Shown here one piece after another: positions 2,027 through 17,526 of a stretch of DNA of 64,000 nucleotides. A program made the translations under genes and the position numbers. Source of the stretch: a virus; the IMG/VR virus record IMGVR_UViG_3300025886_000006, positions 1 to 64,000 of that record. The stretch is one strand, 5' to 3'. Under the pieces are notes generated by a model, which was not told the origin of the DNA, searched no databases, and was given only the letters and a program-made list of their open reading frames with translations. Every line of letters starts with the position of its first letter. Within the stretch, counting starts at the first letter, position 1.

Positions 2027-2372
2027 AAGAGAAAAAAGAGCCGCTGCAAGAGCAGAGAAGTTAGGAACTTTATTAAAGGACTCTCCTAAAATAGCAACAA
2101 AAGATTACAGTAATTTACGTGGAAACTTTGCTACTACTATAGAACACTGGATTACTAGATCAAGATTTAAGTATATCGAAAGATGTAAAAGGTCTATAAA
2201 AAAATCTAATCGTAGAAGAAAGAACAGAGTGAATAAAAGAGTCTTTGATAATCTTATCTTAAATGGACTGGTTATAAGTAGTAATATTGAGCATATTCAA
2301 GCTTTCTCTCTTTCTATTCCCCATGTACTAACTAAAGAATTTAAAGAAACACTTTATAGTTGGAAATTTTAA
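2013..2372 (+). CDS. Small, very basic hypothetical protein
   Basis: I place the start at the ATG at 2013, which overlaps the previous stop, rather than the more upstream ATG at 1986. The resulting 119-residue protein is strongly basic, with Arg/Lys clusters near residues 3-15 and 55-75, which suggests nucleic-acid binding. No fold is recognised. The gene directly precedes the large structured noncoding region at 2409-2986, so an RNA-binding role is conceivable but unproven. Confidence 0.6.
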   Translation: MSLNRREKRAAARAEKLGTLLKDSPKIATKDYSNLRGNFATTIEHWITRSRFKYIERCKRSIKKSNRRRKNRVNKRVFDNLILNGLVISSNIEHIQAFSLSIPHVLTKEFKETLYSWKF

Positions 2373-2408
2373 TACTAAATCAAATTAGAAAAATTCTTGC
2401 AAACGAAA

Positions 2409-2925
2409 AAGAAGTTGCAAAACTTCTTGGATAATACAATACGAGGTCACACGCAAGTGTTGAGGACTATTCTCGTGTTAAGGGGAACTGAAATCCTTTC
2501 AGCCCTAATATTGAAACTGTATAGTAATGTGCAGAATACTACTGGATGTATGCCATAAAGCCAGAATAATAGTATTGGAAGTTGGCAGCTTGACCATTTA
2601 TTTAGCCCACGCTAGAATGTAGGACGTAAAGCCCTTGTCTAGAGAGTAGGACGACATAAATGGTGCTAAAACTTTTAAATATTCAGGTGCATAGTATCAA
2701 ATAAAGTGGAGAGTGTGAGTACTCTATCGAGCCAGAAGCTCTTTCTACACATTTGATGTAATTAACCTTCAAAAGCCACAGGCAGAGATCCGAACTGCTA
2801 GATATTATGTGCCTTAGAATATTAGCTGTGCGTACATACTTTCAAGGGCCAGACGCTTAACCTGGATTCCTGAAAGTGTATGCATTGGCTAGATAGTAAT
2901 CTGTAGAACAGTAGGGCGTTCTACT
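2409..2925 (+). ncRNA. Large multi-hairpin noncoding RNA candidate (about 520-590 nt)
   Basis: The 640-nt gap at 2373-3012 has no convincing gene but a dense series of helices. AAGAAGTT/AACTTCTT (2409-2428) closes a GCAA loop. ACGAG/CTCGT (2441-2476) encloses ACAC-GCAA-GTGT. AGGG..CTGAAA/TTTCAG-CCCT spans 2481-2506. AATACTA-CTGG/CCAG..TAGTATT spans 2535-2576. ACCATTTAT/ATAAATGGT (2593-2664) encloses CTAGA/TCTAG. ATCAAAT/ATTTGAT (2696-2757) encloses two hairpins. A long stem spans 2834-2884, and GTAGAAC/GTTCTAC spans 2903-2924. The size and two GNRA loops recall large ornate phage RNAs such as ROOL or GOLLD, but I cannot match either. Transcription is probably rightward. Confidence 0.6.
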
Positions 2926-2940
2926 CATTTGTCAGAGTTT

Positions 2941-2986
2941 AGAGAGGGGGTTTTGAGGTGTCATGCCCTTTCGTTTCCCCCTCTTT
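2941..2986 (+). terminator. Terminator-like hairpin ending the large RNA region
   Basis: AGAGAGGGGG (2941-2950) can pair over ten positions (one G-U) with CCCCCTCTTT (2977-2986). The loop is about 26 nt and the T-run is short (TTTAT). It may be an intrinsic terminator or the closing 3' helix of the noncoding RNA. Confidence 0.5.
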
Positions 2987-3002
2987 ATCTCGCTTAACTA
3001 AA

Positions 3003-3010
3003 TACGTTTG
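3003..3010 (+). promoter_or_regulatory. Possible Bacteroidota -7 element (TACGTTTG)
   Basis: TACGTTTG fits the TAnnTTTG consensus and lies 2 nt before the ATG at 3013. No TTG is visible at the -33 distance, and transcription would start at or inside the gene, so this may be a chance match. Confidence 0.2.
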
Positions 3011-3012
3011 AA

Positions 3013-3348
3013 ATGAATAAATTTCATAATCATATTCACCTCGACGGAGGAACTGTCATTACTGCTGTAGGTGAATATAATGACCAAGCTATGTGCTTGG
3101 AAGTAGGAATGGCAGTATGTTCTAATAGAGATAATTGGAACAGAAGAAAAGGCAACATGATTGCCAAAGGAAGACTCGATAAAGGTAGACTTTTCGCAAG
3201 TATTCCAATGAAAGGTGAACCATCTGTAGAGATGTGGAAATCTTACATGCTCGAAACTAAAGTCAAAATCGCTGACCAAGTTGAGCAAGAGAATGTTACC
3301 CCCAAGAATTTAAGAGTGGCTCGAATTGTCGATGTTACTAAAGCATAA
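3013..3348 (+). CDS. Hypothetical protein, beta-rich
   Basis: A 111-residue soluble protein of unknown function. The pattern of alternating hydrophobic residues in the first 75 residues suggests a small beta-barrel or sandwich. A helical and charged C-terminus follows. No motif is recognised. It stands alone between two structured RNA inserts (2409-2986 and 3364-3443). Confidence 0.75.
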   Translation: MNKFHNHIHLDGGTVITAVGEYNDQAMCLEVGMAVCSNRDNWNRRKGNMIAKGRLDKGRLFASIPMKGEPSVEMWKSYMLETKVKIADQVEQENVTPKNLRVARIVDVTKA

Positions 3349-3960: not shown

Positions 3961-4714
3961 GGACGAAAGAAAAATAAAAAGAGCTGCTTCTCTCATTAGA
4001 GATGAAATAGCACCGAAAATCAAAAAAGGATACTTAGAAGAAGGTCCTAAATATGGAGGAGGAGTACATATGATTTATGTGACTCCTGCTGACATATTTG
4101 AAAAGAAACCTCAACTAGAATCTTTACTTACTAGTGCAGGACTTACAGAAAAGGTCAGAGTTATCAATGATTCAGAACTGAAAATCTTTATATGGAATAT
4201 GGATCCTCTAGTTGCAGGACATGTCCCAAAAGAGGTCATGAGGAATATGGTAGAAGATTTGATATCAATGAATAATTGGGAAAATAGTACTAGTGCCTTA
4301 ACTAGAATTGTTTCCAATATTCATAGCATGCCTGCTCCTGATCTAGGTAAAGCTCTTTGTACTATTCTAGCTAATCTTACTGGTGCAACTGCAGCTGATA
4401 GCATAGATTACATGGGATACGTATCTCATGCTTCTATGATTAGAGCAGATATATTGGAAAAAACTGATCCAGATATTAAGACAACAGAGCAGTTTTGGGA
4501 AAAATATTCTGATGTAAAATCACATCCTGCACATTTAGACTCACTTATTATTAAGTTTGAATCTAAAGAAGATGAAAAGCCTACTATGGTTTCTTATCTA
4601 ATTAACAATTTTAATGTGGATGCTGATATCCACGAGTATTCAGAAAAAGCTGAAGGGCATGTTAGGTCAGGTGACTTAGGAAACTTTTGGAAGCTTTACA
4701 AAATGAATCTTTAG
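3961..4714 (+). CDS. Hypothetical protein
   Basis: I choose the ATG at 3961 because an AT-rich leader precedes it and the in-frame extension upstream runs through the structured RNA. The 251-residue protein appears soluble and mixed alpha/beta, with a Gly-rich turn near residue 33. No motif is recognised. The adjacent downstream gene (4717-5331) follows within 3 nt, so the two are probably co-expressed. Confidence 0.75.
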
Positions 4715-5411: not shown

Positions 5412-5993
5412 ATGAAAAATAACACAACTTTTGCTGCCATTCTTTTGGCTGCTGGACCAGTCTTTATTCGTAAAGCTTGGGTAAATACCAATTCCAAGAA
5501 AGGGGATCAAGTTTCGATCCAAATGTTTCAAGTAATCAAGTCTTCTTCGGAAGGTCCTGGATTGATTGGAGCAATTTCTCAAGGAATTGAGGGTGCTGGA
5601 ACTCAAAAAGTTACTGCTATCCAAAGTGTTCGAAGAGACATTGCAGAGAAGGCCCTAGGTCACAACTTTGACAATGGAGATTTGGATTTCTCAAATGTTG
5701 GTGGAGGAACAGATCAGGCAGTGCCTGCTTCAATTCTTTTTGGCGACACTGAAGTGAATATTCAGGTAACTGAAAACTTCACTCCAAATGCGTTTGCTAA
5801 GAATCATGAGCCTAAAATGAATCCTTCTACGGAAGAGGTAGTTGAGGCTGTGAATCCTGCAACTGGACAGGCTTCGCCTGTATACCGTCACACAGAACTT
5901 GTGGCTGGTGATGCTAATCACAAATATGTGAGCACTGCATCTTCTTCAGTTGAAGCTACTGCTTCTTCTGCAATTGAAGAGGCAACTGCCTAA
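5412..5993 (+). CDS. Hypothetical protein of a separate, strongly terminated unit
   Basis: A 193-residue protein of unknown function. The first 120 residues look beta-rich, and the last 50 are Ala/Ser/Thr/Glu-rich and probably disordered. Codon choice is visibly richer in GCT, GGA and CTT-type codons than in its neighbours. The gene has its own 80-nt T-rich leader and is followed by two very strong terminators (6014-6044 and 6062-6126). This arrangement suggests an abundant product made from its own short transcript, for example a DNA-binding or decoy protein (inference). Confidence 0.75.
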   Translation: MKNNTTFAAILLAAGPVFIRKAWVNTNSKKGDQVSIQMFQVIKSSSEGPGLIGAISQGIEGAGTQKVTAIQSVRRDIAEKALGHNFDNGDLDFSNVGGGTDQAVPASILFGDTEVNIQVTENFTPNAFAKNHEPKMNPSTEEVVEAVNPATGQASPVYRHTELVAGDANHKYVSTASSSVEATASSAIEEATA

Positions 5994-9778: not shown

Positions 9779-10073
9779 AGAAGATTTCAGGATGTTGCTT
9801 AATAAATCCCTAAGTGTTGCGAGAGATCCTAAAACAGGATTATTACGTATAAATACTAGAGTAAAAGTTAAGTATAGTATTGTAACTGCAAAATCTGGAG
9901 ATTTTCCAGGAATAGGAATTAATCTAGATATGCAAAGTTTTGCTGGTAAATACGTAACTATTTCTTCCATAATACCTCATCATCAAGTTTCTAATTATTA
10001 CAAAATATTAGAAGATCATAGTGCGAATGCTTGGATAGAAACTATGTTTGAAATAAACGAATATTTTACTTAA
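9765..10073 (+). CDS. Hypothetical protein
   Basis: A 102-residue soluble protein of unknown function. I use the ATG at 9765, followed by Lys-Ile-Thr-Lys, rather than the one at 9747, because it gives a modest overlap with the previous gene. The protein abuts the next start (10074) directly after its stop. No motif is visible. Confidence 0.7.
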   Translation: MKITKEDFRMLLNKSLSVARDPKTGLLRINTRVKVKYSIVTAKSGDFPGIGINLDMQSFAGKYVTISSIIPHHQVSNYYKILEDHSANAWIETMFEINEYFT

Positions 10074-10289
10074 ATGACTGAGAAAAAAGAGTTTGTTGTT
10101 CGTAGATTTCAATCTGGAACTGAGATGGCTATGTTCTTAGCTGACGAAAATAATTTTACTGACTTATCTAGAGATTATCCTGGGGGCAAAAGTAGAATGG
10201 ACGTAAAGAACAAATGCATTCTTATGCAGATGGAGCCAAAAGTTAAAAAAGAAGTAAATGATGAGTCTACTAGAAAAAAATCTTCATGA
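10074..10289 (+). CDS. Small charged hypothetical protein
   Basis: A 71-residue, highly charged protein with a Lys-rich C-terminal tail and no recognisable domain. It abuts the previous stop codon and overlaps the next gene by about 30 nt. It lies within the run of small genes between polymerase and helicase. Confidence 0.65.
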   Translation: MTEKKEFVVRRFQSGTEMAMFLADENNFTDLSRDYPGGKSRMDVKNKCILMQMEPKVKKEVNDESTRKKSS

Positions 10290-17208: not shown

Positions 17209-17510
17209 GAGCAGAATTGCTCGCTTGCTGTAGAGGGATGGTTATCACTGTGCCTCGTCCCCTGAAAGGATGGAGGCATAAATAACTACCTTTACGGTAG
17301 GCAAAAAAAGTAGTTTATCTTCAACCAAGTCGTATGGGAAGGTAAATTTCAAAGATGGAGGAAAGCGGCTGTTATACCTTCATACCAACATAAGTGCTGA
17401 GTAGTTACTGGATGGAGATAGCTGTAAAGTCTCTAGAGCTCTCACCACCATCAGTCTTAATGAAGGCTGATAGTGAGAGAGTTCTAAGCCCAGTAACTAC
17501 TTTGGCACTT
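17209..17510 (+). ncRNA. Multi-helix structured RNA before the primase gene
   Basis: The 318-nt gap starts as a hairpin right after the stop codon (GAGCA/TGCTC, 17209-17222). GCCTC..TCC/GGA..GAGGC follows at 17252-17277. At 17284-17315 there are two mutually exclusive stems, CTACC/GGTAG versus AACTAC/GTAGTT. GTATG..AAGGTA pairs with TACCTT-CATAC (17332-17385). The last domain is closed by AAGTGC plus AGTAGTTACTGG (17392-17411) pairing with CCAGTAACTACT plus GCACTT (17490-17510). It contains a strong inner hairpin, CTCTCAC/GTGAGAG with ATCAG/CTGAT. A T-run follows the last stem. Confidence 0.65.
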
Positions 17511-17526
17511 TTTTATTTCATAACTA

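Follow-up and report, generated by a model that had tools for sequence, protein, structure and literature searches.

The phage and its early gene cluster

The window, which is the 64,000-nucleotide stretch of DNA analysed here, belongs to a virus contig of 92,226 bp. The plus strand carries early and replication genes from about position 85,034, across the contig end, to 30,008, and the minus strand carries the structural genes together with giant RNA-polymerase-type genes. The capsid protein matches those of crAss-like phages only (30–33% identity in the best rows), namely phages of Bacteroides, Flavobacterium and Cellulophaga, which agrees with the Bacteroidota-type host assumed in a first-pass annotation of this DNA. 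Both features by which membership in the Crassvirales was judged, a crAss-type capsid protein and a two-arm genome layout, are present. The capsid matches and the occurrence of crAss001 among the PolA matches indicate a deep-branching Crassvirales phage. On the plus strand between 4000 and 29300 of the window, coding windows fold clearly better than their own shuffles and in this exceed late-strand windows.

Within the early cluster, positions 2373–3012 lie between the stop codon of an upstream ORF and the start codon of a small early gene. The product of this gene has no database relatives, and among the proteins neighbouring the stretch, the one at 5412 is the sole exception to the same result. 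The main features of the locus, and the further gene-free structured stretches found on the same strand, are as follows.

Up to 2372: ORF upstream of the stretch, its stop codon ending at 2372
2395–2995, plus strand: candidate large structured noncoding RNA, proposed from six-frame noncoding character, ensemble entropy and pair probabilities
3013–3348, plus strand: small early gene of 111 aa downstream of the stretch, with its ATG at 3013
17209–17515, plus strand: second gene-free structured stretch of the window, preceding a primase-like gene
Genome 87180–87970 (L083:3180–3970), plus strand: gene-free structured stretch of about 790 nt in the early cluster
Genome 90673–91588 (L083:6672–7588), plus strand: gene-free structured stretch of about 916 nt in the early cluster
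Genome 91041–91180 (L083:7041–7180), plus strand: junction module within the 916-nt stretch

The first-pass annotation had described 2373–3012 as the longest gene-free stretch. This holds within the window but not genome-wide, where the stretches of about 916 and 790 nt exceed it. Its gene-free character is well founded. Hexamer scores, trained on genes of the same phage, range from -0.23 to -0.37 across all six frames, whereas neighbouring small genes outside the training set have in-frame scores of -0.07 to +0.24, with about -0.2 to -0.8 for their other frames. Every frame of the stretch contains 9 to 18 stops. The candidate RNA is delimited at its putative 5' end by the upstream stop codon and at its putative 3' end by the end of the last strong hairpin.

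Predicted fold of 2373–3012

The folding energy of the stretch reaches z -4.9 on the plus strand and -2.3 on the minus strand (150 shuffles; -6.25 on the plus strand with 20 shuffles). However, 8 of the 78 other 640-nt windows of the same phage fold as deeply or more deeply; about five of these are purely coding windows of the early strand, and some overlap other noncoding stretches. Taken alone, the folding energy is thus unexceptional for this phage. The size and helix density from which a resemblance to the ROOL and GOLLD RNAs had been proposed carry little weight in this case, since strong folding is general in the early-strand mRNA of this phage.

The distinguishing trait is clearly a well-defined ensemble on the plus strand only. 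Ensemble entropy is 0.468 bits/nt on the plus strand, below 61 of 62 coding windows of the same phage (minimum 0.461) and below all 40 shuffles of the stretch (mean 1.08, minimum 0.729). The minus strand, with 0.898 bits/nt, is ordinary. It is likely that 2373–3012 is both noncoding and structured on the plus strand.

The minimum free energy (MFE) fold of the plus strand consists of about ten consecutive hairpins or domains and a weak closing helix, most helices having a pair probability (p) above 0.85. All of the following elements lie on this strand.

2400–2405 with 3005–3010: long-range closing helix of 6 bp, p 0.84, weak and possibly due to chance
2409–2428: hairpin 1, 8 bp with a GCAA tetraloop, p 0.93
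2438–2479: hairpin 2, with a GCAA tetraloop at 2453–2456; outer stem p 0.94, inner stem p 0.91
2482–2506: hairpin 3, p 0.63–0.91
2517–2534: hairpin 4, p 0.99
2535–2576: hairpin 5, p 0.86–0.95
2577–2676: domain 6, main stem p 0.97
2679–2822: domain 7, branched, 144 nt, with a 20-bp closing helix, p 0.97–0.99
2823–2891: hairpin 8, long, p 0.76–1.0, z -3.8 when taken alone
2892–2933: hairpin 9, p 0.61–0.98
2935–2991: terminal hairpin 10, 11 bp G/C-rich plus 3 bp, p 0.98, z -4.8 when taken alone

Most of the structural description in the first-pass annotation is recovered in this fold with high pair probability: the succession of about ten helices, the two GCAA tetraloops (2417–2420 and 2453–2456) and the terminal G/C-rich stem (11 bp, 2940–2950/2977–2987, p 0.98). 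The multi-branched domain that it placed at 2696–2757 is not, since its closing pairs have p 0 and the ensemble prefers the larger branched domain 2679–2822. Domain 6 holds the near-repeat CTAGAATGTAGGACG / CTAGAGAGTAGGACG (repeat D3). The 3' side of the closing helix adjoins the start codon at 3013. Terminal hairpin 10 is a possible transcript 3' end, and the U tract following 2991 is weak.

Searches for relatives and the surrounding noncoding elements

Rfam yields no match in the window at the gathering score and, at E ≤ 10, only chance-level matches in 2300–3100, none of them credible. No Rfam intron family matches in the window at the gathering score, and the group II intron model RF01998 gives nothing above its cut-off. 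ARAGORN and Rfam detect neither tRNA nor tmRNA in the window; no tRNA gene is called in the window, L082 or L083, as expected from the earlier remark that the stretch is not near tRNA genes. The same annotation recognised no sequence match to ROOL or GOLLD, and the covariance-model searches that it had proposed are likewise negative in this phage. The ROOL model (RF03087, gathering score 99.1 bits) has no match here at E ≤ 10 and no credible one in 27 related records. The GOLLD model (RF02032, representing the conserved 3' domain) also has none in this phage at E ≤ 10, a negative that is informative because the same search found a full-length divergent match in a crAss-like relative.

A blastn comparison of the stretch with 50,697 phage records, 30 related contigs and about 200 loci revealed no homolog; a 26-nt match in L200 runs antisense to an ORF and was dismissed as chance. 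An exact 28-mer scan gave no relative, and no paralog of the stretch occurs in its own genome. A single-sequence covariance model of domain 7 (2668–2828), run on 2.2 Mb, recovered only itself and one match with E = 7. Closest to this phage among the collected sequences are fragments of the same virus, L002 and L084, and contigs with a 55–60% identical capsid protein or terminase; in a search for closer phages via these two proteins and bacterial genome contigs, the nearest were at this 55–60% level and lack the stretch. Since the collections lack close relatives of this phage, the failure to find a homolog is no proof that the stretch is unique. It does mean that there is neither covariation nor conservation to draw on for 2373–3012, which counts against a large RNA. 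The suggestion of a new large RNA class is thereby left unsupported, since a class takes at least two members, and neither blastn nor the covariance model nor the 28-mer scan supplied a second.

The other gene-free structured stretches provide context. The stretch at 17209–17515 is noncoding by hexamer score, has a fold z of -7.8 (-8.7 with 150 shuffles) and an entropy of 0.272, and ends in a long hairpin followed by TTTTTT. It is a candidate compact RNA or attenuator, statistically stronger than 2373–3012. Relatives too have gene-free stretches in the early cluster, counted after leaving out gaps that proved to be open frames. One such stretch, in the early region of the crAss-like relative G002 (IMGVR_UViG_3300030101_004594), contains the following element.

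G002:61241–61680 (L208:1501–1940), minus strand: GOLLD-like RNA, a full-length divergent match of 52 bits (E 3e-14), below the gathering score of 150 bits

The proposed likeness to ROOL and GOLLD gains context from this RNA. More generally, the gene-free structured stretches in this phage and its relatives favour an RNA reading of 2373–3012.

The junction module in the 916-nt stretch consists of a helix P1 (ACUCUCA/UGAGAGU), a mini-hairpin (CC-AAGCA-GG), a variable arm of about 20–180 nt and a hairpin (CAAGG-NUNGCAA-CCUUG); in DNA the layout is ACTCTCA-TCC-AAGCA-GG-[variable arm]-CAAGG-NTNGCAA-CCTTG-TGAGAGT. At least 119 IMG/VR stretches (L085–L203 and others) contain an exact match to a pattern covering its 3' half. 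Among 97 distinct copies, one arm occurs in different outer contexts and one outer context with different arms, which marks the junction as a shuffled module. In 23 distinct cores, 7 of 14 pairs change on both sides, across all three helices, and the compensatory signal amounts to 18 cells against 3.4 in shuffles, collapsing once partners are slid; the copies were, however, picked with pairing required (at least 6/7 and at least 4/5 pairs) and with the loop motifs also required, a choice biased towards structure. In the 19 loci tested, the module has no Rfam match; annotated phage records yielded no copy of it, and the literature text searched does not contain its sequence.

Several further elements were observed in related phages. 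In G002, a variant of the junction module lies about 770 nt upstream of the GOLLD-like RNA, with an NPNA micropeptide further upstream. Micropeptides of this type (19–25 aa, pattern like GVVTxxxWxxNPNA or NTNA) are conserved in about 20 crAss-like loci, for example at L003:3483–3551, L034:153–221, L296:6488–6547 and L208 minus 174–242. They are located upstream of a large gene-free stretch, often with a small hairpin directly after them; none was found in the present phage. The cultured Cellulophaga phage phi14:2 (NC_021806) has a 1.7-kb stretch (L299:2905–4601) in which the early ORFs lost their annotation in 2020. It includes a tmRNA predicted by ARAGORN at 4031–4500 (46 bits in Rfam, just under gathering) and a gene-free 600-nt part, which has a piece of about 110 nt in common with the 145-kb Cellulophaga phages phi4:1 and phi17:2. 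By eye, tRNA-like sequences whose anticodon or variable region is enlarged by additional nucleotides can be seen in L296 (about 9780–10146) and L025 (4402–6170); ARAGORN called no tRNA on L025.

Interpretation and comparison with known large RNAs

Location in the early cluster, absence of genes, restriction to one strand, the strong terminal hairpin and the definedness of the fold together fit a stable structured RNA made early. The main reading, with a probability of roughly 0.5, is that 2395–2995 (plus strand) specifies a single functional molecule, a large, structured noncoding RNA some 600 nt long. It would be transcribed early in infection together with the early/replication gene cluster, and its transcript would end at or near the hairpin 2935–2991. 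The folded RNA would then act in its own right, probably in trans, and not as an mRNA leader. A role as a scaffold, as a decoy or in assembly, proposed by analogy with the ornate phage RNAs ROOL and GOLLD, is plausible but unproven, and the stability of the RNA and any assembly or partner are likewise putative. Against a large RNA of this kind count the early-strand coding windows of similar folding energy and the absence of the junction module from 2373–3012, and against a stand-alone RNA the finding of no clear promoter and no strong intrinsic terminator in 2373–3012.

Its position directly upstream of the ATG at 3013 would also suit a long cis-acting leader, that is, a 5' untranslated region controlling this gene through attenuation or a hidden start region. 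The closing helix (p 0.84) lies 3–8 nt before the start codon, the terminator-like G/C hairpin stands 20 nt upstream of the gene, and 17209–17515 is similarly placed before a primase-like gene and ends in a hairpin and U tract. Nevertheless, a leader of 600 nt would be very long, six base pairs could pair by chance, only a weak U tract follows 2991 and nothing points to the 3013 gene needing such control. A leader is a less likely but live rival. A patchwork in which small, independent elements such as terminators, processing hairpins and small RNAs were joined by recombination, with no single large RNA, is a rival of similarly low probability. Such an origin is suggested by the mostly consecutive, local hairpins, each stable alone, and by the recombination of modular noncoding pieces in these phages, as seen in the junction arms and contexts. 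It accords poorly with domain 7, a 144-nt branched unit under a 20-bp helix; the internal near-repeats and the low entropy of the whole stretch favour one molecule, and the modules found elsewhere are all absent from it.

The lack of conservation found and the coding-like folding energy would even allow a spacer or a decayed sequence that does nothing as an RNA, or else a DNA element, for example a replication origin. This is very improbable, given a fold definedness specific to one strand and the otherwise tight packing of phage early regions; a DNA element is further opposed by the absence of a skew switch, iterons or tandem repeats. A replication origin at 2373–3012 was rejected, as neither a skew change nor iterons are present.

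The large structured RNA at 2395–2995 is, then, a good but unproven candidate phage RNA. A tentative and rather doubtful extension is that it may represent a large ornate phage RNA of a new class, seen here for the first time. CrAss-like phages would then maintain several large RNAs, unrelated to one another, in a noncoding part of the early gene cluster that is reserved for them and recombines rapidly. If crAss-like phages each carry several large RNAs in a fixed gene neighbourhood, the function of large phage RNAs becomes testable in cultured systems such as phi14:2 and the Bacteroides crAss phages, crAss-like phages being abundant and partly culturable. The conserved junction and the conserved micropeptide offer ready handles for comparative work, which the orphan stretch itself lacks. 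The neighbourhood of 2373–3012 is more interesting than the stretch itself.

The best reading of 2395–2995 is that it would work like ROOL and GOLLD while belonging to neither. To our knowledge, the structures of these large phage RNAs have been solved and no function is known for them. ROOL is a homo-octameric RNA cage and is often located near tRNA islands. It is encoded by phages and prophages, measures about 570–660 nt, has many helices and encodes no protein, and both ROOL and GOLLD form RNA-only cages (PMC12286853). The stretch shares with ROOL the phage origin, a similar size, the many helices and the lack of a protein; it differs in having no match to the ROOL model and no tRNA island. 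With GOLLD it has in common that it would be a large phage RNA, and a divergent GOLLD-like RNA occurs in the early region of the relative G002, whereas this phage has no GOLLD match. The tmRNA (RF00023) predicted in phi14:2 is also a structured RNA from the early region of a member of the Crassvirales, but the stretch has no tRNA-like end, T arm, or ARAGORN or Rfam call. The crAss-like junction element at genome 91041–91180, although not a part of 2373–3012, shares with it the phage, the strand, the gene cluster and a structured, noncoding character.
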